Assembly (NCBI RefSeq): GCF_004123905.1
Contig: NZ_MZXW01000035.1
Location: 372,001-436,000, forward strand
Length of the DNA stretch: 64,000 nucleotides
DNA from: Bradyrhizobium betae
GTDB lineage: Bacteria > Pseudomonadota > Alphaproteobacteria > Rhizobiales > Xanthobacteraceae
Direction of reading: 5' to 3'
Shown here piece after piece: positions 1,852 through 44,769 of the stretch. The position numbers and the translations under genes are program-made. The notes beneath the pieces were generated by a model. It searched no databases. It was not told the origin of the DNA and was given only the letters and a program-made list of their open reading frames with translations. Numbering within the stretch: position 1 is the first letter of the stretch; each line of letters starts with the position of its first letter.

Positions 1852-2765
1852 AGCTTGATCCCCGCCCGCGCCGCGGCCTGCGCCACGTATTTCTGCGTCT
1901 GCTCGAATGCACCCGTCAGCGCCTTGGCCTTCGACATATCGCTGATCTCGGCGAAATGCGCGGCGACTGCGTCCGGCGTCCATTCGGACTCCGGCAGGTT
2001 GATGCCCTCGCTCTCCAGAATCTTGATCACGGCGAAGGAGCCGGCGCCCGCCCCCATGATGGTGCGGGTCGGCGCGTCCTCGCTGAGCATATATTCGACC
2101 GCGGGCGTGATCGCGTTCGGCTTCATCAGTTGCAACGCCTGCGGCGGCAGCAGCTCTTCGGTCATGCGGGTCGCAGCGGTCGGCGAGATGATGTTGACGC
2201 GGATGTTGGTCTTGCGGCCTTCCTCGGCGAGCACGTTCATCAACCCGACCATGCCGGACTTGGCCGCGCCGTAATTGGCCTGGCCGAAATTGCCGTAGAG
2301 GCCGGAGGACGACGTCGTCAGCACGATGCGGCCGTAATTGCGGTCGCGCATGCCGGCCCACGCCGCCTTGCAGCAATAGAAGGTGCCGACGAGGTGTACG
2401 TCGAGCACCTTCTGGAAATCGGCGGCTTCCATCTTGCCGAACGATTTGTCGCGCAGGATGCCGGCATTGGCGCACATCAGGTCGACGCTACCCCACTCCT
2501 TGGTGGCGCGCTCGACCATGGCGATGACCTGCTCGAAATTCGACACGTCGGCGCCGTCGGCCATCGCGGTGCCGCCGGCCTTGCGGATCTCCTCGACCAC
2601 CGCTTCGGCGGGCGAGAGCGAGCCGCCGCTGCCGTCACGTGCGCCGCCGAAATCGTTGACGACGACCTTGGCGCCGCGGCTGGCGAGGCCCAGCGCATGC
2701 GCCTTGCCGAGACCGTTACCCGCGCCGGTGACGATGGCGACGCGTCCGTCGAACCTGATTGCCAT
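1848..2765 (-). CDS. SDR-family 3-hydroxyacyl-CoA dehydrogenase (MFE-2-like)
   Basis: A 305-residue short-chain dehydrogenase. The cofactor motif TGAGNGLG is near residue 13, the strand-end segment VVNDFGG binds the NAD ribose, and YGAAK supplies the catalytic Tyr and Lys. The VVNDFGG segment and overall length resemble the dehydrogenase domain of peroxisomal multifunctional enzyme type 2 (HSD17B4/Fox2) more than FabG-type SDRs. The neighbour is a MaoC hydratase, the other activity of that enzyme, so an acyl-CoA hydroxy-intermediate is the likely substrate (inference). ATG at 2765 was chosen because homology starts at MAIRFDG; an in-frame start further upstream would fall in the repeat element. 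Confidence 0.85.
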   Translation of the reverse strand: MAIRFDGRVAIVTGAGNGLGKAHALGLASRGAKVVVNDFGGARDGSGGSLSPAEAVVEEIRKAGGTAMADGADVSNFEQVIAMVERATKEWGSVDLMCANAGILRDKSFGKMEAADFQKVLDVHLVGTFYCCKAAWAGMRDRNYGRIVLTTSSSGLYGNFGQANYGAAKSGMVGLMNVLAEEGRKTNIRVNIISPTAATRMTEELLPPQALQLMKPNAITPAVEYMLSEDAPTRTIMGAGAGSFAVIKILESEGINLPESEWTPDAVAAHFAEISDMSKAKALTGAFEQTQKYVAQAAARAGIKL

Positions 2766-2784
2766 GGGTGTGCTTCCTGTTGGA

Positions 2785-2873
2785 TCGTCATGGCCGGGCT
2801 TGCCCCGGCCATCCATCAAAATCGACAGGCTTTTGAGCAGCGATGGGTGGCCGGGTCAAGCCCGGCATAGTCA
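2785..2873. repeat. Palindromic intergenic element (GGCCGGGC type)
   Basis: The spacer between the MaoC gene and the SDR gene holds two hairpin halves: TCATGGCCGGGCTTG followed by CCCCGGCCATCCAT, and then GGTGGCCGGGTCAAGCCCGGCATAG. The outer parts are roughly reverse complements of each other, so the whole stretch can fold. Elements of this sort are common between rhizobial genes and may stabilise or attenuate transcripts. The role is inferred. Confidence 0.6.
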
Positions 2874-3350
2874 CGCGAAATAGATCAGGCCCAGCCACTC
2901 CGCGACCAGCGCCGGCTTATCCTCGCCCTCGATCTCCACGGTGACGCTGGTGCGGGACTGCAATTCATTCGGCTTGCGGAGCTTGGCTTCCGCCAAGACA
3001 AAACGGCCGCGGACGCGCTTGCCCGAGCGCACCGGGGAGATGAAGCGCAGCTTGTCGAAACCGTAATTGACGCCCATCGTGGTGCCGGCGATGACAGGCA
3101 TCACCTCATAGGACATGATCGAGAGCAGCGACATCGTGAGAAAACCGTGCGCGATGGTGGTGCCGAAGGCGGTTTCCTTCTTCGCGCGTTCCGGGTCGAC
3201 GTGGATGAACTGGTGATCCTCGATCACATCGGCATAGGTGTCGATGCGCGGCTGATCAATCAGATGCCACGACGATACGCCGATCTCCTTGCCGACCATG
3301 GCCTGATAGGCATCGAGGGAAATCGGCGGCTTCTTCCAGATTTCGTTCAC
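2871..3350 (-). CDS. MaoC-family (R)-specific enoyl-CoA hydratase-like protein
   Basis: A 159-residue hot-dog fold protein. The hydratase dyad is visible in EDHQFIHVDP (Asp, four residues, His), followed by FGTTIAHGFLTMSL, the signature of MaoC/PhaJ hydratases. It would hydrate a 2-enoyl-CoA. The start is GTG at 3350, directly after the TAA of the acyl-CoA synthetase (TAAGTG), which implies translational coupling. The gene sits between an acyl-CoA synthetase and an MFE-2-like dehydrogenase, consistent with activation, hydration and oxidation of an acyl chain. The substrate is unknown. Confidence 0.87.
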   Translation of the reverse strand: MNEIWKKPPISLDAYQAMVGKEIGVSSWHLIDQPRIDTYADVIEDHQFIHVDPERAKKETAFGTTIAHGFLTMSLLSIMSYEVMPVIAGTTMGVNYGFDKLRFISPVRSGKRVRGRFVLAEAKLRKPNELQSRTSVTVEIEGEDKPALVAEWLGLIYFA

Positions 3351-5069
3351 TTAGGTCTCACTCCGTGTTTTCGGCAGCTCCGGAAAATCCTCCTCGCGGA
3401 ATTCCCGGCCGCGCAGCGGATCGTTGCGATCATCGTCGCGTTCGAGCCGTCGTAGCTGCACGCGGCGGATTTTTCCAGAGATCGTCTTCGGCAGCTCGGT
3501 GACGATTTCGAGCCGGCGGATGCGCTTGAATGGCGCAAGCCGCGTGTGCAGATGCTTGAAGATCGACAGCGCCGTCTCCGGCGAACGTTCCGCGCCCGAA
3601 ATCAGCAGCACGAAAGCTTTGGGGATCGCCAGCCGGATCGGATCGGGGCTCGGCACCACCGCGGCTTCGGCCACCAGCTCATGCTCGAGCAGCACGCTCT
3701 CCAGCTCGAACGGGCTGATGCGGTAATCGGAAGATTTGAAGACGTCGTCGGAGCGGCCGACGAAGGTGAGATAGCCGTCCTCGTCTTCGAACACGACATC
3801 GCCGCTGCGATAGAGATCGCCTTCGGCACCGGAAAGCTCGCCGTCGTCACCCTGATAGCCCTGCATCAGGCCGGCCGGACGGTTATCGCCCAGCACCAGC
3901 GTCACCTCGCCCTCTTTCGCCGGTTGGCCATCGGCATCGCTGACCTGCACGCGATAGCCCGGCAGCGGCCGGCCCATCGAGCCGACCTTGATCTTTTGGC
4001 CCGGCGAGTTGCCGGCAAGCGCCGTCGTTTCGGTCTGGCCGTAGCCGTCGCGGATGGTGAGGCGCCAGGCGGCCTGCACCTGGTCGATCACTTCAGGATT
4101 GAGCGGCTCACCAGCGCCGCAGACTTCGCGCAACGCGACCTTGAAGGACGCAAGGTTCTCCTGGATGAACAGCCGCCACACCGTCGGCGGCGCGCACAGC
4201 GTGGTGACGCCGCAGCGGCCGATGGTGGCAAGCAGCGCCTTGGCATCGAAGCGTGGCTGATTGACCACGAACACGGTCGCGCCCGCATTCCACGGCGCGA
4301 AGAAACAGCTCCAGGCGTGCTTGGCCCAGCCGGGCGAGGAAATGTTGAGGTGGACGTCGCCGGGCTTCAGCCCGATCCAGTACATGGTGGAGAGATGTCC
4401 GACCGGATAGCTGCGCTGGCTATGCAGAACAAGCTTTGGCTTTGCAGTCGTGCCCGAGGTGAAATAGAGCAGCATCGGATCGTCGGCGTTGGTCGGGCCG
4501 TCCGGCGTAAAACTCTCGGGCGCTTTCGCCGCCTCGTCGTAAGCGAGCCAGCCATCGGAGGCCGCACCGACCACAATGCGCACGATATTCTCGGCACCAA
4601 GGCTCGCGAATTTCGCGACCTGGTCTTGCGCCGCCATCACCGCCTTCGCCTTGCCGCGATCGAGCCGGTCGCGCAGTTCGTCGGCGGTGAGCAGAGTGGT
4701 CGCGGGGATCACGACAACGCCGAGCTTCATCGCCGCCAGCATCGTCTCCCACAGCGGAACCACATTGCCGAGCAGCAGCAGGAGATGATCGCCGCGCTTC
4801 AGGCCCTGCGCGCGGAGGAAGTTGGCGACCTGGTTCGAGCGTTTAGAAAGCGCAGCGAAGGAGAGCTTTGTCTGCTTGTCCTGCGCGGCGTCGACAATCC
4901 AGAGCGCGGGGCGGTCCTTGCTGTCCGCATTCGTCGCCAGCTCGGCGTCGAACCAGTCGAGCGCCCAGTTGAAGGGAACCGGATCGGGCCAGCGGAAGTC
5001 CTTGACCGCTGTCTCGTAATCCGTGCGGCTGTGCAGCAGAAACGCGCGCGCTTCCTGAAATGTGGTCAT
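3351..5069 (-). CDS. Acyl-CoA synthetase (AMP-forming)
   Basis: A 572-residue member of the ANL adenylating superfamily. Visible motifs are the phosphate loop YFTSGTTAKPK, the A5 motif YGQTET, the hinge region YRSGDVVF...GYLTFVGRSDDVFKSSDYRISP, and the C-terminal catalytic lysine in PKTISGKIRR. It activates a carboxylic acid to its CoA thioester via an acyl-AMP. The final bases of the upstream mmsB gene and this start share one base (TGATG at 5071-5067), so the two are co-translated. A TTG three bases upstream is less likely. The acetyl/propionyl/medium-chain choice cannot be made by eye. Confidence 0.9.
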   Translation of the reverse strand: MTTFQEARAFLLHSRTDYETAVKDFRWPDPVPFNWALDWFDAELATNADSKDRPALWIVDAAQDKQTKLSFAALSKRSNQVANFLRAQGLKRGDHLLLLLGNVVPLWETMLAAMKLGVVVIPATTLLTADELRDRLDRGKAKAVMAAQDQVAKFASLGAENIVRIVVGAASDGWLAYDEAAKAPESFTPDGPTNADDPMLLYFTSGTTAKPKLVLHSQRSYPVGHLSTMYWIGLKPGDVHLNISSPGWAKHAWSCFFAPWNAGATVFVVNQPRFDAKALLATIGRCGVTTLCAPPTVWRLFIQENLASFKVALREVCGAGEPLNPEVIDQVQAAWRLTIRDGYGQTETTALAGNSPGQKIKVGSMGRPLPGYRVQVSDADGQPAKEGEVTLVLGDNRPAGLMQGYQGDDGELSGAEGDLYRSGDVVFEDEDGYLTFVGRSDDVFKSSDYRISPFELESVLLEHELVAEAAVVPSPDPIRLAIPKAFVLLISGAERSPETALSIFKHLHTRLAPFKRIRRLEIVTELPKTISGKIRRVQLRRLERDDDRNDPLRGREFREEDFPELPKTRSET

Positions 5070-5959
5070 CAAGCTTTCCCGGCCAGCCCCCTAACGTGCT
5101 TGATAATTCCGGAAAAATCCACCCCGCCCTGGCCGGCTGCGTCGAACGCCTGATAAATCTCCTGCGCGTGCTGACCGAGCGGCGTCGCCGCGCCAGCCGC
5201 CTTGGCGGCGTCCTGCGCCAGCGTCAGGTCCTTCACCATCAGCGCCGAGGCAAAGCCCGGCTTGTAATCGTTGTTCGCCGGCGAGGTCGGCACCGGGCCC
5301 GGAACCGGGCAATAGGTCGTCAGCGACCAGCACTGGCCCGACGAGGTCGAGGCGACGTCGAACAACGCCTGATGCGAGAGGCCGAGCTTCTCAGCCAACG
5401 CAAACGCCTCGCTCACCGCGATCATGGAAATGCCGAGGATCATGTTGTTGCAGATTTTTGCCGCCTGCCCCGCGCCGGCGCCGCCGCAATGCACGATCTT
5501 CTTGCCCATCCTCTCCAGCACGGGCTTTGCCGCCGCGAATGCGTTCTCCTCACCGCCGCACATGAAGGTGAGCGTTGCGCCCTTGGCGCCGCCGGTGCCA
5601 CCGGAGACCGGTGCGTCGACCGAGAGGACGCCGTTCTTGGCAGCGAGCGCATGCGCCTGCCGCGCGCTTTCGACGTCGATGGTGGAACTGTCGATGATCA
5701 GCGTGCCCTTGGTCATGGCGGGAACGACCTCGTTCCAGACGCCGAGCACATGCTTGCCTGCGGGGAGCATAGTGACGACGATATCAGCGCCCTTCACCGC
5801 ACCCGACGCGCTGTCGGCGATGCCGGCGCCGTCAGCCTTCGCCTGCGCGCGCGAGGCCTCGACGAGGTCGAACGCGACGACCTTGTGGCCGGCCTTGACA
5901 AGGTTGGCCGCCATCGGGCCGCCCATGTTGCCGAGACCGATGAATGCGATCGTGGCCAT
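5069..5959 (-). CDS. mmsB: 3-hydroxyisobutyrate dehydrogenase
   Basis: A 296-residue beta-hydroxyacid dehydrogenase. The N-terminal NAD motif is FIGLGNMGGPMAANLVKAGH, the substrate-binding segment is DAPVSGGTGGA, and the catalytic lysine lies in GAGQAAKICNNM. It oxidises 3-hydroxyisobutyrate to methylmalonate semialdehyde in valine catabolism. The assignment is supported by neighbours that carry the preceding steps (acyl-CoA dehydrogenase, 3-hydroxyisobutyryl-CoA hydrolase) and the following step (mmsA). Its ATG follows the upstream gene by about 28 bases. Confidence 0.93.
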   Translation of the reverse strand: MATIAFIGLGNMGGPMAANLVKAGHKVVAFDLVEASRAQAKADGAGIADSASGAVKGADIVVTMLPAGKHVLGVWNEVVPAMTKGTLIIDSSTIDVESARQAHALAAKNGVLSVDAPVSGGTGGAKGATLTFMCGGEENAFAAAKPVLERMGKKIVHCGGAGAGQAAKICNNMILGISMIAVSEAFALAEKLGLSHQALFDVASTSSGQCWSLTTYCPVPGPVPTSPANNDYKPGFASALMVKDLTLAQDAAKAAGAATPLGQHAQEIYQAFDAAGQGGVDFSGIIKHVRGLAGKA

Positions 5960-5987
5960 CTTCGTTTCCTCCGCTAGATTGACGTTA

Positions 5988-7055
5988 TTAGTTGAACTTC
6001 AGCTCGTCGGCGCCGATCTCGGCGAGATACGGCGCAAGCATCTCTTGCGTCACATCCTCGATCCGCGGCGGCGAAAAGATCGGATTGCGGTCCTTGTCGA
6101 TCACGGCCGCGCGGACACCCTCGCGGAAATCGTCGCTGCGGAAGACCTCCAGCGCGGCGCGATATTCACGCACGAGGCATTCTTCCAGGCTCGACGCTGT
6201 GCGCGCAAGCCGCAGCAGTTTCAGCGTCACCACCATGCCGCGGGGCGATTTTTCATTGAGCGTCTTCATCGTCGCCAGCGCGAAGTCGGAGCCGTCGCGC
6301 TTGAGCGCAGCGAAAATGTCTTCCATGCGGTCGAAGCCGAACAATGCGTCGATAACGGGCTCTTTGGCGGCGACCGGCCCCGCCGCCTCGCCGGTCGCAA
6401 AGCCATTGATGAGCTTGGTGACGTCGGCCGCGGTCACGCCCTGACGAACCCTCGTCAGCGCCTCGCGCAGCTCCGGCCATTTGGCCGCAGGCACCACGGC
6501 ATCGGCAAACTTTGCATGGATCGCGTCCGGACCGTTCATGGTCTGCCCAGTCAAACCAAAGTAGGTGCCGATCTCGCCGGGCGAGCGCGACAGCAGCCAG
6601 GTGCCGCCAACATCGGGGAAGAAGCCCAGCCCGACCTCCGGCATTGCGAGCTTGGTGCGGTCGGTGACGATGCGATGGCTGGCGTGGCCTGACAGCCCGA
6701 CGCCGCCGCCCATCACGAGGCCGTCCATGAATGCGACATACGGCTTCGGATATTTCGCGATCCGCGCATTCATGACGTATTCCTGGCGCCAGAACCGCGC
6801 GCCGAGATCGCCGCCTTCGCGCGAGCTGTCCCAGAGGCTGCGGATATCGCCGCCGGCGCAGAGGCCGCGTTCGCCCGCACCTTCCAAGATCATCAGCGCG
6901 ACCTCGGCATCGGTCTCGAACTGATCGAGCGCCGCGTCGATGCCGATCGACATCTCCAGCGTCATGGCGTTGATCGCCTTGGGACGGTTGAGCCGGATCA
7001 CGCCCGCCGCGCCTTCGCGGCGAACGATGAGATCGCCCTCTTCCACTGAACTCAT
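5988..7055 (-). CDS. 3-hydroxyisobutyryl-CoA hydrolase (crotonase family)
   Basis: A 355-residue crotonase-fold protein, longer than the usual 260-residue enoyl-CoA hydratase and in the size range of HIBCH. The oxyanion segment GLCAGGDIRSL and the segment MPEVGLGFFPDVGGTWLLSR, whose Glu and Asp are used for thioester hydrolysis, are typical of HIBCH. The reaction is 3-hydroxyisobutyryl-CoA to 3-hydroxyisobutyrate plus CoA. ATG at 7055 overlaps the acyl-CoA dehydrogenase stop by four bases (ATGA). The open frame upstream of this ATG is only a shadow of that gene. Confidence 0.92.
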   Translation of the reverse strand: MSSVEEGDLIVRREGAAGVIRLNRPKAINAMTLEMSIGIDAALDQFETDAEVALMILEGAGERGLCAGGDIRSLWDSSREGGDLGARFWRQEYVMNARIAKYPKPYVAFMDGLVMGGGVGLSGHASHRIVTDRTKLAMPEVGLGFFPDVGGTWLLSRSPGEIGTYFGLTGQTMNGPDAIHAKFADAVVPAAKWPELREALTRVRQGVTAADVTKLINGFATGEAAGPVAAKEPVIDALFGFDRMEDIFAALKRDGSDFALATMKTLNEKSPRGMVVTLKLLRLARTASSLEECLVREYRAALEVFRSDDFREGVRAAVIDKDRNPIFSPPRIEDVTQEMLAPYLAEIGADELKFN

Positions 7056-8197
7056 CGCGCGCCCTCGATCAATTTGCGGGCCACGATCAGCCGCATGATT
7101 TCGTTGGTGCCTTCGAGGATCTGGTGCACGCGCAAATCGCGGACGATCTTCTCGATGCCGTATTCGCTGAGGTAGCCATAGCCGCCGTGCAGCTGGAGCG
7201 CGTGGTTGGCGACCTCGAAGCCGACATCGGTGCCGAAGCGTTTTGCCATCGCGCACAGCATGGTGGCATCCGCGTCTTTCCGATCGAGCGCGGCAGCGGC
7301 GCGCCACAAAAAGGTGCGCGCGGCCTCGAGCTCGATGGCCATGTCGGCGAGCTTGAACTGCAGCGCCTGGAATTCGTCAAGACGTTTTCCAAAGGCCTTG
7401 CGTTCCTTCATGTAGGCGCGCGCCTTGTCGAGTGCAGTTTGGGCGCCACCAAGAGAACAGGCCGTGATGTTGAGGCGGCCGCCGTCGAGCCCGGCCATCG
7501 CAATCTTGAAGCCTGTGCCCTCTTCGCTCAACCGATTGGCCACGGGCACGCGGGCATTCTCGAAAATGACAGCGCGGGTCGGCTGCGCGTTCCAGCCCAT
7601 CTTGCGCTCATTGGCGCCAAAGGAGACGCCCGGGGTCTTGCCGTCGATCACGAGTGTCGAGATGCCGCCGGGACCATCGCCGCCGGTGCGCACCATCACG
7701 ACCAACACATCAGTGCCGCCGGCGCCGGAGATGAATTGTTTCTGGCCGTTCAGCACATAATGGTCGCCGTCGGGCACCGCGCGCGTGCGCAGCGCCGCTG
7801 CATCCGAACCTGCGCCCGGCTCGGTCAGGCAGTAGCTCGCGATCAACTCCATGGTGCAGAGCTTTGGCAGCCATGTGTGGCGCTGGGTGTCGCTGCCGTA
7901 GGCATCGATCATCCAGCTCGCCATGTTGTGGATGGAGATGAAGGCCGATGTGGTCGGGCAGCCCGTCGCCAGCGCTTCAAAAATCAGCGCCGCGTCGAAC
8001 CGCGTCATGGCGGAGCCGCCGACATCCTCGCGGATATAGATACCGCCCATGCCGAGGGTTGCCGCCTCGCGCATCACATCGACCGGGAAATGCTTCTCCT
8101 CGTCCCAGCGCAACGCGTGCGGCGCGATCTTTTCCGCCGCAAACGCCAACGCCATGTCGCGAACCGCGATCTGATCCTCGTTCAGAGCGAACTGCAT
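7052..8197 (-). CDS. Acyl-CoA dehydrogenase, probably isobutyryl-CoA dehydrogenase
   Basis: A 381-residue flavoenzyme. The FAD/substrate motif YCLTEPGAGSDAA is in the middle domain, and the C-terminal helical domain contains VHQILEGTNEIMR, whose first Glu is the catalytic base in short-chain dehydrogenases. It would oxidise isobutyryl-CoA to methacrylyl-CoA and pass electrons to ETF. The isobutyryl specificity is inferred from the valine pathway genes on both sides; a 2-methylbutyryl or butyryl enzyme would look similar. A hairpin element fills the gap between this gene and mmsA. Confidence 0.9.
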   Translation of the reverse strand: MQFALNEDQIAVRDMALAFAAEKIAPHALRWDEEKHFPVDVMREAATLGMGGIYIREDVGGSAMTRFDAALIFEALATGCPTTSAFISIHNMASWMIDAYGSDTQRHTWLPKLCTMELIASYCLTEPGAGSDAAALRTRAVPDGDHYVLNGQKQFISGAGGTDVLVVMVRTGGDGPGGISTLVIDGKTPGVSFGANERKMGWNAQPTRAVIFENARVPVANRLSEEGTGFKIAMAGLDGGRLNITACSLGGAQTALDKARAYMKERKAFGKRLDEFQALQFKLADMAIELEAARTFLWRAAAALDRKDADATMLCAMAKRFGTDVGFEVANHALQLHGGYGYLSEYGIEKIVRDLRVHQILEGTNEIMRLIVARKLIEGAR

Positions 8198-8221
8198 GCT
8201 GCCGCGTACCCTTTCACTCCG

Positions 8222-8311
8222 TCGTCATTGCGAGCGCAGCGAAGCAATCCAGTATCCCTCCGCAGAGATAGTCTGGATTGCTTCGTCGCAAGAGCTCCTC
8301 GCAATGACGAC
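8222..8311. repeat. Dispersed palindromic element (TCGTCATTGCGAG family), copy 1
   Basis: Starts with TCGTCATTGCGAG and ends with its reverse complement CTCGCAATGACGA. Inside are AGCAATCCAG and CTGGATTGCTT as a second pair of arms. The same layout recurs at 21516-21605 and 55151-55236 in this window. Here it lies between mmsA and the acyl-CoA dehydrogenase gene and could act as a transcript-processing or attenuation hairpin (inference). Confidence 0.85.
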
Positions 8312-8320
8312 TGAGGGAGT

Positions 8321-9817
<1,497 letters not shown>

Positions 9818-36108: not shown

Positions 36109-37713
36109 TCAGGCGCCGCGCACGTTCCAGAACAACGGCAAGCCCTTGAGCATGCCGGTCAGGCTCTTCTTGTACGCGGTCGGCTGATAGAAGACACCAA
36201 GCGGCACATAGGGAACATCGACAAAGCACTGCTTCTGCATCTCGATGCCGATCTTGCTCTGCGCGGCGGCATCGGGCGCGGCGAACCAGGCATCACGCAG
36301 TTGCTCGAGCTTCTCGCTCTTGGCCCAGCCGAAGGTCGCCTTGTCACCGCTGCCGCGGATGAAGTTATGGGCCGACGGGTTCAGTTGGGTGACGCCGGCG
36401 GAATAGGTGCAGAAGGCGCTGTATCCGCCCTTGTCCGGCGTCTCGCGGTTACCCATGCGCCTCAGCATCGAGCCCCAGTCCATCATCACGTAGTCGACAT
36501 TGAGGTCGAGCTTGCGGAACAGATCGGCGGTGACCTCACTCATCTGTCCGATGACGGGGAAATCGCCCGGCGCCATCAACAGCACTTTCTCGCCCTTGTA
36601 GCCGGCGTCCTTGATGGCCTTGGCGGCTGCGGCTATGTCGCGGGGGCCGGTCAACGCTTCCATGCCGGCGTCGTTCGCCATGACGCCACCGGGCGCGAAG
36701 AAGCCGATCTTGTCGCGCCACAGGCTGGTGTCGTCTCCCGCAATCGCGGACATGAACTCCTTCTGGCTGATGGCGGAGAGCACGGCACGGCGGATGGCCG
36801 GATTGTCGAACGGCGGCTGCGTGTGGTTGAAGCGCAGCACGCCGACATTACCGATGGGGTCGAGCAGTTCGACGTTCAGCGCCTTGTTTGCCTTCAGCTT
36901 CGGCAGCAGGTCGACGATCGGCTGATCCCACCAGTCGATCTCGCCCTGCTGAAGCGCGGCCGCGGCCGTCGCGGGATCCGGCAGGACCTGCCACTCGACC
37001 CGGTCGAAATAAGCGACCTTCGGACCGGCGAGCAGGCTCGGCGTCCCCTCGGGGCGCGGCACATAGCCGTCGAAGCGCGAGTAAACAAGACGCGCGCCGG
37101 GCACGTGCTGATCGGCCTGGAATTTGAACGGACCGGAGCCGATCAGTTCCTTGACCGGCGTGACGCTGTCGGTCAGCGCAAGACGCTCCGGCATGACGAA
37201 GGCGATGATGGCACCGACCTTGCCGAGCGCCTCCGGCAGCAGCGGAAACGGCGACTTGAGCCGCCAGCGCACGGTCTTGTCATCAGGTGCGGAGAGCTCG
37301 TCGACCAGAGTGAAGAGGGAATTGCCAAACGCATCGCGCGAGGCCCAGCGCTTCAGGCTCGCCACCACGTCGCGTCCGCGTACCGGCTCGCCGTCGTGGA
37401 ATTTCAAGCCGTCGCGCAAGGTCATGGTCCAGAGCTTGCCGTCGTTCTCGACCGTATGACCGGCGACCATCTGCGGCTGAACCCGGAATTTCTCATCGAC
37501 GCCGTAGAGCGTGTCCCAGATCAGGAAGCCGTGGTTCCGGTTGACCAGACCGGTGGTGATCATCGGATCGAGAATGGCCGCATCGGCCTGCGGCACGAAA
37601 CGCAGCACGCGCGACCCCTGCGCACGGGCGAGCCGTGGCATCGGAAAAGTCGAGCCCAAGGCGACGCCGAGACCGGCGCCCAGTGTGGATCGGAGCAGGT
37701 CTCGACGGCGCAT
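36109..37713 (-). CDS. ABC transporter substrate-binding protein, family 5 (peptide/opine type)
   Basis: A 534-residue secreted binding protein. The N-terminus MRRRDLLRSTLGAGLGVALGS is a Tat-like signal (RRxLL). It continues with the SBP_bac_5 pattern VLRFVPQADAAILDPMITTGLVNRNHGFLIWDTLYG. Such proteins bind peptides, opines or other amides for an ABC importer. No permease or ATPase gene of that system is nearby. It lies between the aminotransferase and the amidase genes, with short spacers (10 and 18 bases), so one operon is likely. Confidence 0.9.
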   Translation of the reverse strand: MRRRDLLRSTLGAGLGVALGSTFPMPRLARAQGSRVLRFVPQADAAILDPMITTGLVNRNHGFLIWDTLYGVDEKFRVQPQMVAGHTVENDGKLWTMTLRDGLKFHDGEPVRGRDVVASLKRWASRDAFGNSLFTLVDELSAPDDKTVRWRLKSPFPLLPEALGKVGAIIAFVMPERLALTDSVTPVKELIGSGPFKFQADQHVPGARLVYSRFDGYVPRPEGTPSLLAGPKVAYFDRVEWQVLPDPATAAAALQQGEIDWWDQPIVDLLPKLKANKALNVELLDPIGNVGVLRFNHTQPPFDNPAIRRAVLSAISQKEFMSAIAGDDTSLWRDKIGFFAPGGVMANDAGMEALTGPRDIAAAAKAIKDAGYKGEKVLLMAPGDFPVIGQMSEVTADLFRKLDLNVDYVMMDWGSMLRRMGNRETPDKGGYSAFCTYSAGVTQLNPSAHNFIRGSGDKATFGWAKSEKLEQLRDAWFAAPDAAAQSKIGIEMQKQCFVDVPYVPLGVFYQPTAYKKSLTGMLKGLPLFWNVRGA

Positions 37714-37731
37714 GCTAAGTCTCCTCAGGGG

Positions 37732-39123
37732 TTACGCAGATGGACGTGTCTCGGCAAGCCTGGCTTCGGCGCTGGACAAGGTTTTCGCGAACAGGTCGAG
37801 CGCCTCGTCGACGCCGGCCTCGTTGATGATCAGCGGCGGGCAGAACCCGATCGTGTCGCCCATGGCGCGGATGATCAGGCCAGTCTCGATCGCAAGTGCA
37901 TCGAACATTGCGCCGACCTTCAGCGCGGGATCGAACGCCTGCCGCGTCGCGGGATCAGCGACCAGCTCGACGCCGATCATCAGTCCCTCGCCCCTGACCT
38001 GGCCGACGATGCGCGAATCCCGCGCGATCTGCTCCAGCCCGGCGCGGAGCCTGCCGCCCATGCGGCGCACATGCGGCACCACATCCATCTCGTGATAGAT
38101 TTTTAGCGTCTCGAGCGCGATGGCCGCGCCGACCGGGTGTCCGGAATTGGTGAAACCGTGGCCAAACAGCTCGCCGCCCCTGTTCATCTCGGCGAGCGCA
38201 TCCCGGATCGGACGTCCCAGCAGCACGGCTGACATCGGGAAGTAGGACGAGGTGATGCCCTTGGCGAGCGCCACCATGTCCGGCTTCATGCCGACCGTCT
38301 GGCAGCCGAACCAGTTGCCGGTGCGACCAAAACCGCAGACCACCTCGTCGCCGAGCACCAGGATATCGTGACGGCGCAGCACTGCCTCGATCGCAGTGAA
38401 GTAGCCCTTCGGCGGCACGACGATGCCGCCGCCCGCGTTGATCGGCTCGGCGATGAAGGCGGCGATCGTGTCAGGTCCCTCGGCCATGATCAGCGCTTCG
38501 AGATCGGCCGCGAGACGGGCGACGAACGCTTCCTCGCTCTCGCCGGGCCTGGTGCCGCGATAGGCATCCGGGCAATGCGTGTGCAGGAAGCCGTCGAGCG
38601 GGAGGCCGAATTCGCGGTGCATGCGGGGCAGACCGCACATCGAGGCCGCAACGATCGTCGAGCCATGGAAGCCGCGGTCGCGCGCGATGATCTTGCGCTT
38701 GCCGGGCTTGCCGTGGACCGCGTGATACACCCAGGCGAGCTTCACCATGGTCTCGGTGGCCTCCGAGCCGGACGTAGCGAAATAGGCCTGCGCATCCGGG
38801 ATCGGCGAGATCTCGACCAGCTTCTCGGCGAGGTCGATCGTGTTGTCGGGCGTCTTGTGATTGAAGCTGTGATAGAAGCCGAACTTGTCGTAGGCAGCAA
38901 GCGCCGCCGCCTTGAGCCGCGTCTCGGAAAAGCCGAGCGAGGTGCACCAGAGCCCTGCCATCGCTTCCAGATAACGCTTGCCGCTTGCGTCATAGACATG
39001 GACGCCCTCGCCGCGCGCCATGATCAGCGGTCCGATTTCTGCATGACGCTGAGGGTTGGTCTGCGAGTGCAGATGGAACGCGATGTCGCGCGCCTCGGCT
39101 GAATTCAGTCTTCTGTCGGACAC
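37732..39123 (-). CDS. Class III PLP-dependent aminotransferase (omega-aminotransferase)
   Basis: A 463-residue fold-type I enzyme. The PLP lysine is in MVALAKGITSSYFPMS, the PLP-ring aspartate is in LVLGDEVVCGFGRTG, and PFHGST-like phosphate binding is in RDRGFHGSTIV. The N-terminal LEAMAGLWCTSLGF fits beta-alanine/putrescine or diamine:pyruvate transaminases. It would deaminate an amine or omega-amino acid. It is the first gene of the amidase operon and faces the GntR gene across the FadR-type operators. Confidence 0.9.
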   Translation of the reverse strand: MSDRRLNSAEARDIAFHLHSQTNPQRHAEIGPLIMARGEGVHVYDASGKRYLEAMAGLWCTSLGFSETRLKAAALAAYDKFGFYHSFNHKTPDNTIDLAEKLVEISPIPDAQAYFATSGSEATETMVKLAWVYHAVHGKPGKRKIIARDRGFHGSTIVAASMCGLPRMHREFGLPLDGFLHTHCPDAYRGTRPGESEEAFVARLAADLEALIMAEGPDTIAAFIAEPINAGGGIVVPPKGYFTAIEAVLRRHDILVLGDEVVCGFGRTGNWFGCQTVGMKPDMVALAKGITSSYFPMSAVLLGRPIRDALAEMNRGGELFGHGFTNSGHPVGAAIALETLKIYHEMDVVPHVRRMGGRLRAGLEQIARDSRIVGQVRGEGLMIGVELVADPATRQAFDPALKVGAMFDALAIETGLIIRAMGDTIGFCPPLIINEAGVDEALDLFAKTLSSAEARLAETRPSA

Positions 39124-39180
39124 GCGCAGACGCTCCGTATTCCCGCCGGTGAGGCAGATCCGGCGTCAGTCGACCCAAAT

Positions 39181-39205
39181 TGGTCAGGCCAAATTGGTCT
39201 GACCA
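39181..39205. promoter_or_regulatory. Two FadR/PdhR-type operators
   Basis: TGGTCAGGCCA (39181-39191) and TGGTCTGACCA (39195-39205) repeat with a spacing of 14 bases. The second fits TGGTNNNACCA, the consensus used by FadR-subfamily GntR proteins, and the first differs in one base. They sit between the divergent aminotransferase and GntR genes. Confidence 0.75.
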
Positions 39206-39250
39206 GCTTGGCTTTCGTGCGGCAGCTTGTCAAATTCAAAAAAACAGCTG

Positions 39251-40006
39251 ATGAGCACGAAGATGTTGCACGACCCTCCGTCCAGGCCTGAACGCAGCTT
39301 CGAGATCGTCGCGCGGCGCATTGCTGCAATGATCCAGGCGAGTTACCGGATCGGCCAGCGCCTGCCGGCCGAGCGCGATCTCGCAAAGACGTTTGGCGTG
39401 TCGCGGCCGACGGTGCGCGAGGCCATCCTGTCGCTGGCGATGGCGGGGATGCTGAAGGTCCGCAGCAACAGCGGCGTCTATGTGATCAGCCGTCAGGAAG
39501 CGCCTGACGTGCATGCGCTCGAAGGCTTTGGACCGTTCGAAAACCTGGAAGCGCGTCAGCTGATCGAGCCGCAGATCGCCGCGATCGCGGCGCAGCGTGG
39601 GTCGGAGACGACCTTCGCCCAGCTTGCAGAAGCGCTCGCCATGATGCGCTGGGAACATGCGCAGGGACGCGAGGCCGACACGTCGGACCACCGCTTCCAC
39701 ATGGTGCTGGCCGAAGCGACCGGGAACGGCGCGCTGGTGTCGATCAGCGACTCGCTGTGGCGCGCGCAAACCGAGTCCGGCATCTGGCAGGAGATTCACA
39801 ACCACATGCAGATGGAGGATTATCGTCCCATGTGGCGCCGGGATCACGAAGCCATCTTCGACGCCGTTCAGGCGCGGAACCCGCGCAAGGCGAGTGGTGC
39901 CATGACGCGTCATCTCAACAATATCAGGGATGCGCTGATGGAGGCTTCGAAGGCCAAATCGATGGCCACGACCAAGCCTACGAATTCTCGTGGAAAAATC
40001 CGGTGA
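39251..40006 (+). CDS. GntR-family regulator, FadR/FCD subfamily
   Basis: A 251-residue regulator. The winged HTH contains IGQRLPAERDLAKTFGVSRPTVREAILSLAMAGML, and the C-terminal helical FCD domain shows LIEPQIAAIAAQRG and DHRFHMVLAEATGN with the His/Asp residues that hold a metal. It is divergent from the aminotransferase operon and its two operators lie between, so it should repress that operon until an acid or amine ligand binds. The start is uncertain: ATG 39251, ATG 39263 or TTG 39227, none with a good ribosome-binding site. Confidence 0.88.
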   Translation: MSTKMLHDPPSRPERSFEIVARRIAAMIQASYRIGQRLPAERDLAKTFGVSRPTVREAILSLAMAGMLKVRSNSGVYVISRQEAPDVHALEGFGPFENLEARQLIEPQIAAIAAQRGSETTFAQLAEALAMMRWEHAQGREADTSDHRFHMVLAEATGNGALVSISDSLWRAQTESGIWQEIHNHMQMEDYRPMWRRDHEAIFDAVQARNPRKASGAMTRHLNNIRDALMEASKAKSMATTKPTNSRGKIR

Positions 40007-40362: not shown

Positions 40363-40450
40363 TTCGTCATTCCGGGGTGGCCCTCGCACAAGCCAGGCCC
40401 AGAATTCCCGTTCCAGGCTCGGTCTCTCAGGACCGCCCCCGAATGACGAA
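40363..40450. repeat. Palindromic element (TTCGTCATTC / GAATGACGAA ends)
   Basis: TTCGTCATTCCGGGG at the left and CCCCCGAATGACGAA at the right form a perfect 10-bp outer stem plus G/C pairs. The inner part holds CCAGGCC and a CAGGCTCGGTCTCTCAGGACC stretch. It ends 6 bases before the stop of the DUF35 gene and may terminate transcripts from both sides. Confidence 0.75.
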
Positions 40451-40455
40451 TCCCA

Positions 40456-40815
40456 CTACTTCCTCTTCGTGAAGAAGGGCACCAGCTTTCCGGCAAACGG
40501 CTTGAAGCCCGCGATCACGTCGTCGCCGATAGCGAGATCGTTCTCGCCATGCGCCATCATGCGAAAACCCTCGGCGCAATCGACCAGCAAAATATTGTAG
40601 GGCACATGCGCGCGCGTCTCCGGCGTGGCAGCGCGGCAGACCAGCGAGGTTGCGTAGACCCTGCCCTTGCCGCTGGCGCGTTGTTCGCGCGAATCGGATG
40701 CGCCGCAGGTCGCGCAGAAGGCGCGATGAAAATACTGCACATGGCCGCATGCGGTGCAGGTCTGGTAGGTGATGGCCTGTTCGCCCCTGGTCCAGTCCGC
40801 TAGACGCTTACTCAT
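40456..40815 (-). CDS. DUF35 OB-fold zinc-ribbon protein (thiolase partner)
   Basis: A 119-residue protein. The N-terminal zinc ribbon CTACGHVQYFHRAFCATCG has four cysteines (about residues 20-38), followed by the OB-fold body (SGKGRVYATSLVCR, VPYNILLVDCAEGFRMM). DUF35 proteins partner thiolase-like proteins in steroid and ketoacyl-CoA metabolism. ATG at 40815 overlaps the stop of the thiolase-like gene by four bases (ATGA), which supports a 1:1 complex. Confidence 0.87.
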   Translation of the reverse strand: MSKRLADWTRGEQAITYQTCTACGHVQYFHRAFCATCGASDSREQRASGKGRVYATSLVCRAATPETRAHVPYNILLVDCAEGFRMMAHGENDLAIGDDVIAGFKPFAGKLVPFFTKRK

Positions 40816-41948
40816 CGCACCCGCTCCAGGAACATGCTGACATGGGACGACAGCACGCCGCCGTCGCCGTGCAGCAGCGCGATCGAAGCATCCCGTACCT
40901 GACGATTCGCCGCCCGCCCCGTCATCTGCAAATGCGCCTCGACCAGATGCGCCATGGCGCCGCCGACGCCGCAATGGCCGTAGCTGAGCAATCCGCCATG
41001 GGTGTTGAGCGGCATGGCGCCGTCGCGGCCGAAATGACCCGCACGCACGCGCGCCGCTGCTTCGCCGCGAGCCGCGAGGCCGAGGTCTTCCAGCAGCATC
41101 GCAAGCGTGATGGTAAAGCTGTCGTAGATCGCGGCGTAGCGGATGTCGGAGATCGCAAGGCCCGTGGCCTCCCTGGCGCGCGCGATGGAGATCTCGGCGC
41201 CGAGCTCGCTGAGCGCGGGCGCGGCCGTGACATGCTGATGCGTATGCGCCTGGGCGCAGCCGCGGATGCGCACGCCGGCCTCCCCGGTCCGCTCGCGACT
41301 GATGACGAAGGCGGCGCCACCGTCGGAGACCGGGCAGCAATCCAGCAGTTTTAGCGGCATCGCGACCGGCTTCGAGGCCATGACGTCAGCGACCTCGATG
41401 GGATCGTGGAATTGCGCGCCGGGATGCGTGCAGGCGTGCGCGCGCATCAGCACCGCGAACTCGGCGAGGTCCTGTTCGGTCACGCCGTATTCGTGCATGT
41501 AGCGTGTGGCGACCAGACCATAATAGGCGGGAATGGTCGCCCCGAGCGGCACCTCGTAGTCGGGATGGCCGACTTGCGCGAGTGCCTGGATCGAGGCATC
41601 GCGGCTCTGTCCAGTGAGACGGTTCTCGCCGGCGACCACGAGTACGTTGCGCGCGACGCCTGCGTCCACGAGGTGATGGGCGAGCATCGTCATCGCGAGG
41701 CCCGTGGCGCCGCCGACCTGCACAGCGTGGGCGTAAGCCGGGCGGATACCAAAATGCTCGGCGAACACGGTCGCCAGCATGATGTGCGGTGACACCGTGG
41801 AATAGCCGCAGAGAATGCCGTCGATCTCGGCGCGCTTGAGCCCGGCATCGTCGAGCGCCGCTTGCGCGGCCTTGCTCATCAGGTCGAGCGAGGACGAGCC
41901 TTCGTGCTTGCCGAAAGATGTGAGGCCGACCCCGGTGATGAAGCTCAT
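40812..41948 (-). CDS. Thiolase-like (SCP-x/Ltp2 type) protein lacking the nucleophilic cysteine
   Basis: A 378-residue thiolase-fold protein. The segment HAVQVGGATGLAM lines up with the ENACATG motif of the thiolase at 43600-44769, so the nucleophile position is Gly80. The C-terminal loop reads SYGHCGVGGAMAH in place of GHPxGxTG. With a DUF35 partner fused by overlap, it resembles the Ltp2-type aldolases of steroid side-chain degradation, which do retro-aldol cleavage of acyl-CoA. True thiolase activity is unlikely. A CoA-transferase gene precedes it with a four-base overlap (ATGA). Confidence 0.85.
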   Translation of the reverse strand: MSFITGVGLTSFGKHEGSSSLDLMSKAAQAALDDAGLKRAEIDGILCGYSTVSPHIMLATVFAEHFGIRPAYAHAVQVGGATGLAMTMLAHHLVDAGVARNVLVVAGENRLTGQSRDASIQALAQVGHPDYEVPLGATIPAYYGLVATRYMHEYGVTEQDLAEFAVLMRAHACTHPGAQFHDPIEVADVMASKPVAMPLKLLDCCPVSDGGAAFVISRERTGEAGVRIRGCAQAHTHQHVTAAPALSELGAEISIARAREATGLAISDIRYAAIYDSFTITLAMLLEDLGLAARGEAAARVRAGHFGRDGAMPLNTHGGLLSYGHCGVGGAMAHLVEAHLQMTGRAANRQVRDASIALLHGDGGVLSSHVSMFLERVR

Positions 41949-43156
41949 GATGCCCCCTGCTCCGGCGCCGAGCGCGTGGCGCCATCGCGGATCATGGCGG
42001 CGATCTCATCAGTGGAGTACCCGACCTCGCTCAAAATCTCCGCGCCGTGCTCGTTGAGCCGCGGCGCAAGCCGCTGCGGCTCGGCCTCGGTCTCGGACCA
42101 GCTCGCTGTCACCTTCATGCTGCGGATCGGGCCTTCGGTCGGGTGCTCGACGACCGGGAAGAAGCCGGTCGCCTCCAGATGTTCGTCGTGCAGGATCGAG
42201 GCGAGGTCGTGCATCGGCATGACCGGGACGTCGGCCTTCGTCAGAAGGTCGATCCACTCGGCGGTAGTGCGTGTCTCGAAGATGCGGGCGAGCTCGGCAT
42301 AGACGACATCGATGTTGGCGGCGCGGCCGGCGAAGGTCGCGAACTTTGCATCGGCGCGCAGATCGTCGCGGCCGGTGGCTTTGAAAAAGTTCTCCCACTG
42401 CTTGTCGTTATAGACGATGACGCTGAGATAACCGTCCGAGGTCTTGTACGGCCGGCGGTCGCGCGAGAGGTGGCGGGCATAGCCGCCCTTGTCGAGCGGA
42501 GGCTCATAGGTGAGCCCACCCATGTGGTCGCCCATGACGAAGCCGGCCATGGTCTCGAACATCGGGATGTCGACGCGCTGGCCGCGCCCGGTGCGGTCGC
42601 GGTGCACGAGGCTGGCGCAGATCGCGCCGACGGCGGTGAGGCCGACGATGCGGTCGACCAGCGCGTTCGGCACGTAGCGCGGCACGCCGTCGCCGGTCTG
42701 CGCCATCAGCGCGGGCAATGCGGTGGCGCCCTGGATCAAATCGTCATAAGCGGGCTTTGCGGCATAGGGCCCGTCCTGGCCAAAACCGAACACCCCGGCA
42801 TAGACGAGGCGCGGATTGATTTTGGAGACGACGTCGTAGCCGAGCTGAAGCCGTGCCATCGCCTGCGGACGGACATTGTAGACGAGAACGTCGGCATCCT
42901 TCAGCAGCCGCAGCACGGCATCGCGACCCGCAGGCTTCTTCAGGTCGAGGCAGATCGAGCGCTTGCTGCGGTTCGTGTTGAGGAACACCGGACCCATGCC
43001 GGCATGGCGCATCGGGCCGATCAGGCGGGTAACGTCACCGTCGAGCGATTCCACCTTGATGACATCGGCACCGTAATCGCCGAGCATCTGGGTCGCATAG
43101 GGCCCCATCAGCACGGTGGTCATGTCGACGACCTTGATGCCCTTCAGCGGCCCCAT
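41945..43156 (-). CDS. CaiB/BaiF family CoA-transferase
   Basis: A 403-residue type III CoA-transferase. The segment GADVIKVESLDGDVTR, the catalytic aspartate region (YDDLIQGATALPALMAQTGD) and RGQRVDIPMFETMAGFVMGDHMGG are typical. It moves CoA between acids, supplying the acyl-CoA used by the following genes. It is the first gene of the operon CaiB, thiolase-like, DUF35. No ribosome site or operator stands out in the 116-base spacer upstream. Confidence 0.9.
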   Translation of the reverse strand: MGPLKGIKVVDMTTVLMGPYATQMLGDYGADVIKVESLDGDVTRLIGPMRHAGMGPVFLNTNRSKRSICLDLKKPAGRDAVLRLLKDADVLVYNVRPQAMARLQLGYDVVSKINPRLVYAGVFGFGQDGPYAAKPAYDDLIQGATALPALMAQTGDGVPRYVPNALVDRIVGLTAVGAICASLVHRDRTGRGQRVDIPMFETMAGFVMGDHMGGLTYEPPLDKGGYARHLSRDRRPYKTSDGYLSVIVYNDKQWENFFKATGRDDLRADAKFATFAGRAANIDVVYAELARIFETRTTAEWIDLLTKADVPVMPMHDLASILHDEHLEATGFFPVVEHPTEGPIRSMKVTASWSETEAEPQRLAPRLNEHGAEILSEVGYSTDEIAAMIRDGATRSAPEQGAS

Positions 43157-43599: not shown

Positions 43600-44769
43600 C
43601 TACTTCAGCGGCTCCAGCACGGAGACGTAATTGGCGACGGCCGCGCCGCCCATGTTGAAGATGCCGCCGAGTTTTGCATTTTTGAGCTGCATGCCCTCGG
43701 GCGCCTGTCCGGCGAGCTGCATCGCGGTCATCACGTGCATGGAGACGCCGGTGGCACCGATCGGGTGGCCCTTGGCCTTCAGGCCGCCGGACGGATTGAC
43801 CGGCAGCTTGCCGTCCTTGAGCGTCCAGCCTTCCTTGATGGCGCGGGCGCCCTGCCCCTTCGGCGTCAGGCCCATCGCTTCGTATTCGATCAGCTCGGCG
43901 ATGGTGAAGCAGTCATGGGTCTCGACGAAGGAGAGATCGGACAGCGTCACGCCGGCCTGCTCCAGCGCGCGCTGCCAGGCGACCGTGCAGCCCTCAAACT
44001 GGAGGATGTCGCGCTTGGACATCGGCAAGAAGTCCTGGGCGTGTGCGGTGGCGCGGAAGCCAATCGACTTAGCCATGCCCTTGGCGGTCTCGGCATCGGC
44101 CAAAATCAGCGCCGCAGCGCCGTCGGAGACGAGCGAGCAGTCGGTGCGCTTCAGGGGGCCCGCGACATAGGGATTCTTCTCGCTCTCGGCGCGGCAGAAG
44201 TCGAAGCCAAAGTCCTTGCGCATCTGGGCATAGGGATTGGCGACGCCGTTCTTGTGGTTCTTGGCCGCGATCAGCGCCAGCGCATCGGACTGGTCGCCGT
44301 ATTTCTGGAAGTAGGAGCTGGCGATCTTGCCGAACACGCCGGCAAAGCCGCCGACGGTGTCGCCGTCTTCAGGCAGGTAGGACGCCTTGAGCAGGTTCTT
44401 GCCGATCTCAGGCCCCGGCGTGCGCGTCATCTGCTCGACGCCGACGACCAGCACGATTTTGGCCGCGCCTGCGGCAATTGCACGAACACCCTGATGCACG
44501 GCGGCGGAGCCCGTGGCGCAGGCATTCTCGACGCGGGTGGTCGGCTTGAAGCGCAGTTTTGGGTCGGCCTGGAGCACCAGCGAGGCGGTAAAATCCTGCG
44601 GCGAGAAGCCGGCGTTGAAATGGCCGAGCACGATCTCGTCGACATCGGAGGCGGAAATGCCGGCGTCCGCCATCGCCTCATTGGCAACGCGGGTGACGAG
44701 GCTTTCGACGGTTTCGGTGTCGAACTTGCCGAACGGCGTATGCGCCCATCCGACGATGCTGGCGGTCAT
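43600..44769 (-). CDS. Thiolase family protein (acetyl-CoA acetyltransferase-like, intact Cys)
   Basis: A 389-residue thiolase. The nucleophile is in VENACATGSAAVHQG, and the C-terminal motif GGLKAKGHPIGATG is intact, so it should be catalytically competent. The sequence MTASIVGWAHTPFGKFDTETVESL is typical of the SCP-x/acetyltransferase branch. It stands alone between the small coiled-coil gene and the aldolase gene, 59 bases after the aldolase stop. Confidence 0.9.
   Translation of the reverse strand: MTASIVGWAHTPFGKFDTETVESLVTRVANEAMADAGISASDVDEIVLGHFNAGFSPQDFTASLVLQADPKLRFKPTTRVENACATGSAAVHQGVRAIAAGAAKIVLVVGVEQMTRTPGPEIGKNLLKASYLPEDGDTVGGFAGVFGKIASSYFQKYGDQSDALALIAAKNHKNGVANPYAQMRKDFGFDFCRAESEKNPYVAGPLKRTDCSLVSDGAAALILADAETAKGMAKSIGFRATAHAQDFLPMSKRDILQFEGCTVAWQRALEQAGVTLSDLSFVETHDCFTIAELIEYEAMGLTPKGQGARAIKEGWTLKDGKLPVNPSGGLKAKGHPIGATGVSMHVMTAMQLAGQAPEGMQLKNAKLGGIFNMGGAAVANYVSVLEPLK

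Follow-up and report, generated by a model that had tools for sequence, protein, structure and literature searches.

The 64,000-nucleotide stretch of Bradyrhizobium betae DNA analyzed here (the window) is part of a genome of 8.62 Mb in 57 contigs, and carries a three-gene operon that encodes a class III coenzyme A (CoA) transferase (CaiB), a thiolase-fold protein that lacks the nucleophilic Cys (designated thioA), and a partner protein of the DUF35 type. Judged from sequence, this operon would constitute an acyl-CoA aldolase module, to which we assign a probability of about two in three. The reading is founded on gene order, active-site residues, phylogeny, and recurring gene contexts, all of which were observed. 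An earlier note on the same DNA had preferred an aldolase-like over a thiolase-like function for a Cys-less site with a DUF35 partner, and the tree, the residues, and the gene context presented below lend support to this preference. The coordinates, gene order, and strand of the operon in that note were correct (Table 1), as were the four-base overlaps between the genes, both the CaiB/thioA and the thioA/DUF35 junction being formed by ATGA.

Alignment of thioA with thioB, a thiolase encoded upstream of CaiB that served as the Cys-bearing comparison, placed Gly80 of thioA (QVGGATG) at the position of the nucleophilic Cys84 of thioB (ENACATG), which confirms a difference that had been noticed before. 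Moreover, Tyr275-Asp276-Ser277-Phe278 (YDSF) takes the place of HDCF, with loss of the second catalytic Cys (Ser277), such that thioA has neither of the two Cys residues that characterize SCP2-type thiolases. The HPIGATG loop of thioB reads HCGVGG in thioA; the earlier note had correctly recorded the replacement of the HPxGxTG loop, but had overlooked that the loop His is retained (His325) and that the HDCF Cys is lost. Residues were counted in 153 distinct homologous stretches, including the window's own copy of thioA. Gly80, Tyr275, Asp276, and Phe278 were present in all 125 homologues with at least 41% identity to thioA (99, 15, and 11 by identity band), and since Gly80 is shared by all of these it does not reflect chance or a sequencing error. 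In the same 125 homologues, position 277 was Ser in 118 and Cys in 7, and position 325 was His in 123 and Gln in 2. The 28 stretches with at most 40% identity comprised 14 with Gly and 14 with Cys at position 80; the latter are thioB orthologues by position and have HDCF, and among the former L136 has HDAF and L004, from the same genome as the window, has YDDY with Gln. The possibility that a Cys elsewhere in the active site takes over, raised in the earlier note, was checked on the alignments of thioA homologues, and no conserved substitute Cys was found. Cys326, which neighbors His325, was considered as a nucleophile and rejected, as it is Cys in only 5 of 15 homologues of 55-79% identity; Cys204 is shared with the 14 Cys-type thiolases. 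The genome contains four more Cys-less thiolase-like stretches beside PF01796 domains (L001 to L004, on C56, C3, C45, and C54, respectively).

The pattern of Gly, Tyr, and no second Cys, as in CtSal and TcLtp2, argues for the aldolase reading. According to excerpts of PMC12329534, both of these proteins are aldolases by assay, with the catalytic pair Tyr294 (YDHF) and Tyr344 in TcLtp2, and Tyr302 and Cys304 (YDCY) in CtSal, which has Gln352 at the position of Tyr344 and a Gly at the nucleophile position. On basis of HMMER rows and alignment, His325 of thioA falls on Ltp2 Tyr344 and Sal Gln352. The thioA-DUF35 pair resembles the steroid C3 side-chain aldolase Ltp2-ChsH2(DUF35) (6OK1) in its predicted thiolase fold, the Gly for Cys, the catalytic Tyr in YDxF, the DUF35 partner, and the proposed retro-aldol logic, but it differs in YDSF instead of YDHF, His325 instead of Tyr344, a DUF35 that is free-standing rather than fused to MaoC, and the presence of a CoA-transferase in the set. 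Likewise, the bile acid C5 side-chain aldolase Sal-Shy (9MYR) has in common with thioA the Gly for Cys, the Tyr base, the DUF35 partner, and, as in some thioA relatives, a MaoC hydratase neighbor, whereas it has Cys304 for Ser277, Gln352 for His325, and a C3H1 instead of a C4 zinc finger (in the DUF35 protein Shy). The C4 motif of the window protein is C-x2-C-x10-C-x2-C, and its residues Cys20, Cys23, Cys34, and Cys37, all invariant in 12 of 12 aligned proteins, are presumed zinc ligands. The traits of DUF35-associated thiolase-fold aldolases in the broad sense, i.e., a Gly for Cys, a Tyr in YDx[FY], and an adjacent DUF35 gene, are all found for thioA.

Among solved structures, thioA matched best to 4u4e (E 2e-54), followed by 7yvy (2e-44), 9myr (CtSal; 9e-44), and 6ok1 (TcLtp2; 2e-41). 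The best match, deposited as 'Thiolase' and presumably from Sphaerobacter, shares YDSF and the His with thioA and reads VGGSS. A maximum-likelihood tree of 50 rows split the Cys-less proteins, including Ltp2 and Sal, from four reference thiolases with support of 100/100, and this split, in conjunction with the coupling of thioA to DUF35 described below, argues for an aldolase. Within the Cys-less proteins, thioA belonged to a 30-row clade (99/97) that contained a 23-row YDSF clade (100/100) including thioA; Ltp2, Sal, and 4u4e were outside, 4u4e being placed in another well-supported clade. Ltp2 and Sal were represented by one sequence each, on long branches, and in 36-row trees with either of them alone the YDSF subclade (17 rows) was still recovered at 100/100 to the exclusion of either, with support for the wider thioA clade of 98/96 in the presence of Sal and a weak 84/11 in the presence of Ltp2. 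On these tests, thioA appears to share the general type of the steroid aldolases, yet to belong to neither the Ltp2 nor the Sal family, because the motif, the second residue, the zinc finger, and the trees differ. The 'Ltp2 type' assignment of the earlier note is thus not supported in the strict sense, considering YDSF and His325 versus YDHF and Tyr344 and the position of Ltp2 and Sal outside the thioA clade. The same differences from YDHF/YDCY, Tyr344/Gln352, and C3H1, and the position outside both families, make it extremely improbable that thioA is a true Ltp2 or Sal steroid or bile acid side-chain aldolase, even though Sal and Ltp2 rank third and fourth among the solved structures; in addition, no steroid genes were recognized by eye among the open reading frames (ORFs) of the window (the rest of the genome was not searched). 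In titles and abstract openings of the open-licence literature, among the matches listed, Cys-less thiolases with DUF35 occurred in steroid work only, and no description of the thioA branch was found; within these matches, the thioA clade would represent a previously undescribed branch of thiolase-fold acyl-CoA aldolases.

Conservation of the operon was assessed in 80 named loci, the top-ranking 80 out of 288 confirmed relatives, some of them short-flanked. DUF35 and thioA were present in all 80, CaiB and thioB in 78 each, and the sugar genes upstream in 74-77. These sugar genes (KDPG/KHG aldolase and PfkB kinase) were considered as a substrate clue and rejected, being syntenic but unrelated in chemistry. 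The ATGA overlap of thioA and DUF35 was found in 77 of the 80 relatives, whereas CaiB and thioA overlapped by 4 bases in 31 of 78, had an intervening spacer of 9 to 2272 bases in 36, and showed a negative spacing other than -4 in 11 (longer overlaps or stop-search artefacts). The overlaps in the window therefore do not establish the stoichiometric complex of all three proteins that had been suggested earlier. In L108, L109, L111, L113, L115, and L116, CaiB and thioA are separated by an acyl-CoA dehydrogenase gene, and the long insert in L054 holds another ORF that is not the dehydrogenase. In a sample of 146 genomes of the genus, with at most 13 first-look candidates scored per genome, 133 had a thioA orthologue of at least 82% identity, and in these the acyl-CoA dehydrogenase was located at most 3 kb from thioA in 57, elsewhere in 75, and was not found in one. 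The dehydrogenase located elsewhere had 81-84% identity to the L113 copy in 71 of 75 genomes and is probably a paralogue of the operon copy; a high-identity dehydrogenase away from thioA was seen in 4 genomes, in three of which (G073, G138, and G089) the genes were on different contigs, such that 57 of 133 may be an undercount. Outside the genus, the nearest locus (L173, 83%) has the order thioB, AMP-ligase, CaiB, acyl-CoA dehydrogenase, thioA, DUF35, and NDP-forming ligase, which together with the dehydrogenase in the operons of relatives suggests that the window operon is a shortened version of a longer operon. Among the loci, a contig titled Frankia sp. RB7 (L047) carries a Bradyrhizobium block with thioA at 96% and is probably misnamed or contaminated, and in one genome (G114:C13:69576-70710) the thioA orthologue is in two overlapping pieces in different frames, likely due to a frameshift.

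The succession of CaiB, dehydrogenase, thiolase-fold protein, and DUF35 in six relatives would also suit a bbs-like pathway, in which these proteins thiolyse an aromatic or cyclic succinyl-type CoA. The benzoylsuccinyl-CoA thiolase pathway includes a class III CoA-transferase, and one of the CaiB matches (9fn0) is named benzylsuccinate CoA-transferase. Benzoylsuccinyl-CoA thiolase (BbsAB, 7PXP) combines, as the thioA set does, a thiolase with a DUF35 subunit, the latter being mentioned in excerpts of PMC12329534. However, BbsB is a true thiolase that retains the Cys (NVQSACSAG), which thioA lacks, and such a pathway is therefore quite improbable.

Gene contexts in more distant relatives were tabulated over 6 kb around the Cys-less thiolase in 37 hand-chosen loci, with exclusion of L166, which had been fetched for its dehydrogenase. 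These loci are not independent, since some share a genus or even a genome, and the queries were partly taken from counted loci (L113, L156, L164, L166, L171, L173, L181, L182, L186, L188, L190, L191, and the window), such that some loci may have been detected by queries of their own. DUF35 was found by tblastn in 35 loci, NDP-forming ligase in 15, acyl-CoA dehydrogenase and the enoyl-CoA hydratase/isomerase family in 14 each, MaoC and AMP ligase in 11 each, AtuA in 2, and CitE in 1. At least one CoA-activating enzyme was encoded in 26 of the 37 loci (CaiB in 6), such that a CoA activator close to the Cys-less thiolase is a recurrent arrangement; the earlier picture, in which CaiB and thioA alone make and cleave the substrate, is probably incomplete, because the dehydrogenase lies close to thioA in 57 of 133 genomes of the genus and between the two genes in the six loci named above. 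The CoA activators, acyl-CoA dehydrogenases, and MaoC proteins in these loci argue for the aldolase reading, as hydratases accompany Sal and Ltp2 too. The same queries matched a separate acyl-CoA cluster at 2-9 kb of the window, away from the operon; such families are therefore not rare, and only close adjacency is informative. MaoC was located within 0.5 kb of the Cys-less thiolase in L156, L175, L181, L182, L188, and L190-L193. Pairs of MaoC genes adjoin thiolase-DUF35 on Azospirillum and Roseovarius plasmids, on a Paracoccaceae plasmid the thiolase immediately follows a hypothetical gene and a single MaoC gene (PF01575, with the annotation PhaJ), and one MaoC gene is present in Achromobacter and in Celeribacter, the latter without DUF35. 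L156 has, ahead of the thiolase, a MaoC gene (PF01575) along with an ORF that matched no Pfam family, and Pfam recognized just one of the two MaoC queries derived from L188 (as PF01575). The zinc-ribbon protein of L188 was missed by the DUF35 queries and scores just under the PF01796 cut-off, and in L192 no DUF35 gene was found by query or annotation. Methylobacterium and the actinobacterium Cnuibacter have a bare trio of thiolase, DUF35, and a protein of the acetate-CoA-ligase family, and in Comamonas the ligase is set apart by a transporter gene. As separate observations, L188 and L189, from alphaproteobacterial and actinobacterial plasmids, have split transketolase, glycerol dehydrogenase, and SDR genes in common beside the thiolase set, a possible substrate clue, and L186 and L187 combine thiolase-DUF35 with nearby genes for an AtuA-family protein, a small hypothetical protein, and tripartite tricarboxylate transporter proteins.

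A Cys-type thiolase like thioB was encoded within 6 kb in 2 of the 37 loci (as detected with one query, which divergent ones may escape). This speaks against thioA being a catalytically dead subunit with a scaffolding or regulatory role, in a PhlACB-like assembly that DUF35 holds together and in which thioB with its Cys84 is catalytic. Such an assembly would accord with the occurrence of thioB, with a complete thiolase site, in nearly all of the 80 named loci, but the near-invariance of Tyr275, Asp276, Phe278, and His325 among the homologues is unexpected for a dead subunit, and we regard this explanation as very improbable.

The genome that contains the window has, on another contig, a parallel set of genes (L166; C9:154000-172000), comprising a TRAP transporter (DctP, DctQ, and DctM), a CaiB with 60% identity to the window CaiB, a MaoC hydratase, an HpcH/HpaI (CitE-like) lyase, and an acyl-CoA dehydrogenase (C9:162132-163295) with 82% identity to the L113 copy. 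The best NCBIfam models for the hydratase and the lyase are RipB/Ich and RipC/Ccl, both below cut-off, and the set resembles an itaconate-type module. RipABC-type modules, named after the NCBIfam models, resemble the proposed thioA module in the combination of CaiB, a MaoC hydratase, and a C-C lyase, and differ in that their lyase is CitE/RipC-like (PF03328) instead of thiolase-fold; RipABC-type lyases cleave a tertiary-alcohol acyl-CoA. The L166-type and operon-type dehydrogenases are mostly mutually exclusive across the genus, both being present in G002 and G048. That the parallel set has a C-C lyase where the operon has thioA-DUF35 argues for the aldolase reading, and the gene content of this one genome suggests that the slot for C-C cleavage is occupied by a CitE-type lyase in L166 and by thioA-DUF35 in the window operon.

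For the proposed aldolase module we infer an activity, an acid residue, partners acting from elsewhere, and a substrate class as follows. CaiB, in keeping with its family function, would transfer CoA onto a free carboxylic acid, the assumed donor perhaps being succinyl-CoA. As suggested by the related operons, an acyl-CoA dehydrogenase and an enoyl-CoA hydratase would then yield a β-hydroxyacyl-CoA; part of the genus has the dehydrogenase gene within the operon, and its role may here be taken by a paralogue elsewhere in the genome, and the hydratase would be encoded away from the operon. Subsequently, thioA and DUF35 would split the β-hydroxyacyl-CoA in a retro-aldol reaction that releases a short acyl-CoA together with a ketone or aldehyde. 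If the mechanism resembles that of Ltp2 and Sal, Tyr275 would act as base on the β-hydroxyl, for which Gly80 would provide space and a backbone NH, and DUF35 would contribute to the substrate wall as well as to the complex. Reprotonation of the enolate would fall to His325 or Ser277, of which His325 is at the position of the Ltp2 acid Tyr344. According to excerpts of PMC12329534, activity is abolished in CtSal Cys304Ser, and therefore Ser277 alone is unlikely to be the acid and His325 is the natural candidate; the identity of the general acid is the largest uncertainty of the mechanism. The use of an aldolase instead of oxidation and thiolysis suggests a β-branched substrate, with a tertiary alcohol as hydration product, and the substrate class is perhaps a β-branched acid.

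Several observations weigh against this reading. thioA has a Ser at the position of CtSal Cys304 and would need another acid, and the combination of YDSF and His is not exclusive to the thioA clade, as it also occurs outside it in 4u4e, L001, L002, L130, and L133. Second among the solved matches is 7yvy, an acetyl-CoA acetyltransferase of the Cys type, and the best NCBIfam model for thioA (PRK06158), which scored below cut-off, is named acetyl-CoA acetyltransferase. With respect to gene context, no queried CoA activator was detected over 6 kb in 11 of the 37 loci, SDR genes, whose products are possible oxidisers of the β-hydroxyl, were present in 9, and a tblastn search of the 6 kb around the window operon detected neither MaoC nor enoyl-CoA hydratase genes. 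Moreover, in excerpts of PMC11321319 the DUF35 domain of Ltp2 is reported to be unimportant for activity. Finally, the retained thiolase His325 also fits Claisen-type or decarboxylase chemistry, and would thereby agree with a biosynthetic operon, in which thioA-DUF35 either forms a C-C bond, in an aldol or a decarboxylative condensation, or acts as decarboxylase of a malonyl-type CoA. Excerpts of the SSO2064 paper (PMC2954200) tie DUF35 to biosynthesis in phlABC, and those of PMC12329534 mention weak malonyl-CoA decarboxylation by a Trypanosoma SCP2-thiolase-like protein with the active-site architecture of CtSal, but also the lack of this activity in CtSal itself. As the neighbors in relatives look catabolic (acyl-CoA dehydrogenases, hydratases, and ABC or TRAP uptake), a biosynthetic role is considered unlikely.

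The genes of the operon and the neighboring thioB are listed in Table 1. No NCBIfam match above cut-off was obtained for thioA, DUF35, or CaiB, the best models for CaiB, below cut-off, being of the formyl-CoA and succinate-glutarate types. CaiB matched solved class III transferases over its full length, with 4ed9 as best and 9br6 (succinate-HMG CoA-transferase) as third match, and its Asp168 aligns with the YfdW Asp that we take to be catalytic, such that both the full-length CoA_transf_3 domain and the conserved Asp of class III CoA-transferases are present. Solved matches of DUF35 were 6htj, 6esq_E, 9myr_B, and 6ok1_B. Structure predictions of thioA and DUF35, made from shallow window/Bradyrhizobium alignments, had a mean predicted local distance difference test (pLDDT) score of 46.5 and 50.5, respectively, and the models were not used.

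Table 1. Location of the operon genes and thioB in the window.
Feature	Position	Strand	Characteristics
CaiB, class III CoA-transferase (CaiB/BaiF)	41945..43156	-	403 aa; PF02515 (CoA_transf_3), E 3e-111, above cut-off
thioA, Cys-less thiolase-fold protein, proposed acyl-CoA aldolase	40812..41948	-	378 aa; PF22691 (Thiolase_C_1) and PF00108 (Thiolase_N), above cut-off
DUF35/ChsH2-type zinc-ribbon OB-fold partner	40456..40815	-	119 aa; PF12172 (zf-ChsH2) and PF01796 (OB_ChsH2_C), above cut-off
thioB, Cys-containing SCP2-type thiolase	43600..44769	-	NF005704 above cut-off; Cys84, HDCF, GHPIGATG

thioB is separated from CaiB by 443 bases, and whether it is a member of the pathway, beyond being a syntenic neighbor of CaiB, is uncertain. 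Just past DUF35, at 40363-40450, lies an imperfect inverted repeat with 22-nt arms (86%), and in some other Bradyrhizobium, with at least four examples, similar repeat-like elements occupy the space that separates CaiB from thioA. The genes at 36109-40006 (GntR regulator, aminotransferase, and ABC binding-protein genes) adjoin the operon in only 6 of the 80 named relatives, some of which are short-flanked, which indicates a synteny break directly after DUF35. A separate acyl-CoA catabolic cluster at 1848-9817 encodes MaoC, AMP ligase, and acyl-CoA dehydrogenase (by tblastn), as well as a 3-hydroxyisobutyrate-dehydrogenase-type protein and, as recognized by eye, an aldehyde dehydrogenase, and may perhaps serve valine degradation.

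Tentatively, and with somewhat less than even chances, the thioA clade could constitute a third, non-steroid class of thiolase-fold acyl-CoA aldolases that extends from Proteobacteria to at least one actinobacterium and uses the His inherited from ancestral thiolases as general acid, in the role of Ltp2 Tyr344 and Sal Cys304. Combined with an exchangeable CoA activator (CoA-transferase, or NDP- or AMP-forming ligase) and a likewise exchangeable hydratase, such enzymes would provide a general route for cleavage of β-branched acids, as a counterpart of the CitE-type lyases in itaconate-like pathways. If the aldolase reading is true, the fold would have a third solution for the acid step, and many proteins annotated as 'thiolase family protein' or 'acetyl-CoA acetyltransferase' would be C-C lyases that yield aldehydes or ketones. 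Pathway reconstruction would change accordingly in Bradyrhizobium and relatives, considering the orthologue in 133 of 146 sampled genomes, and the family may include small-substrate relatives of the steroid aldolases, which are sought as biocatalysts.

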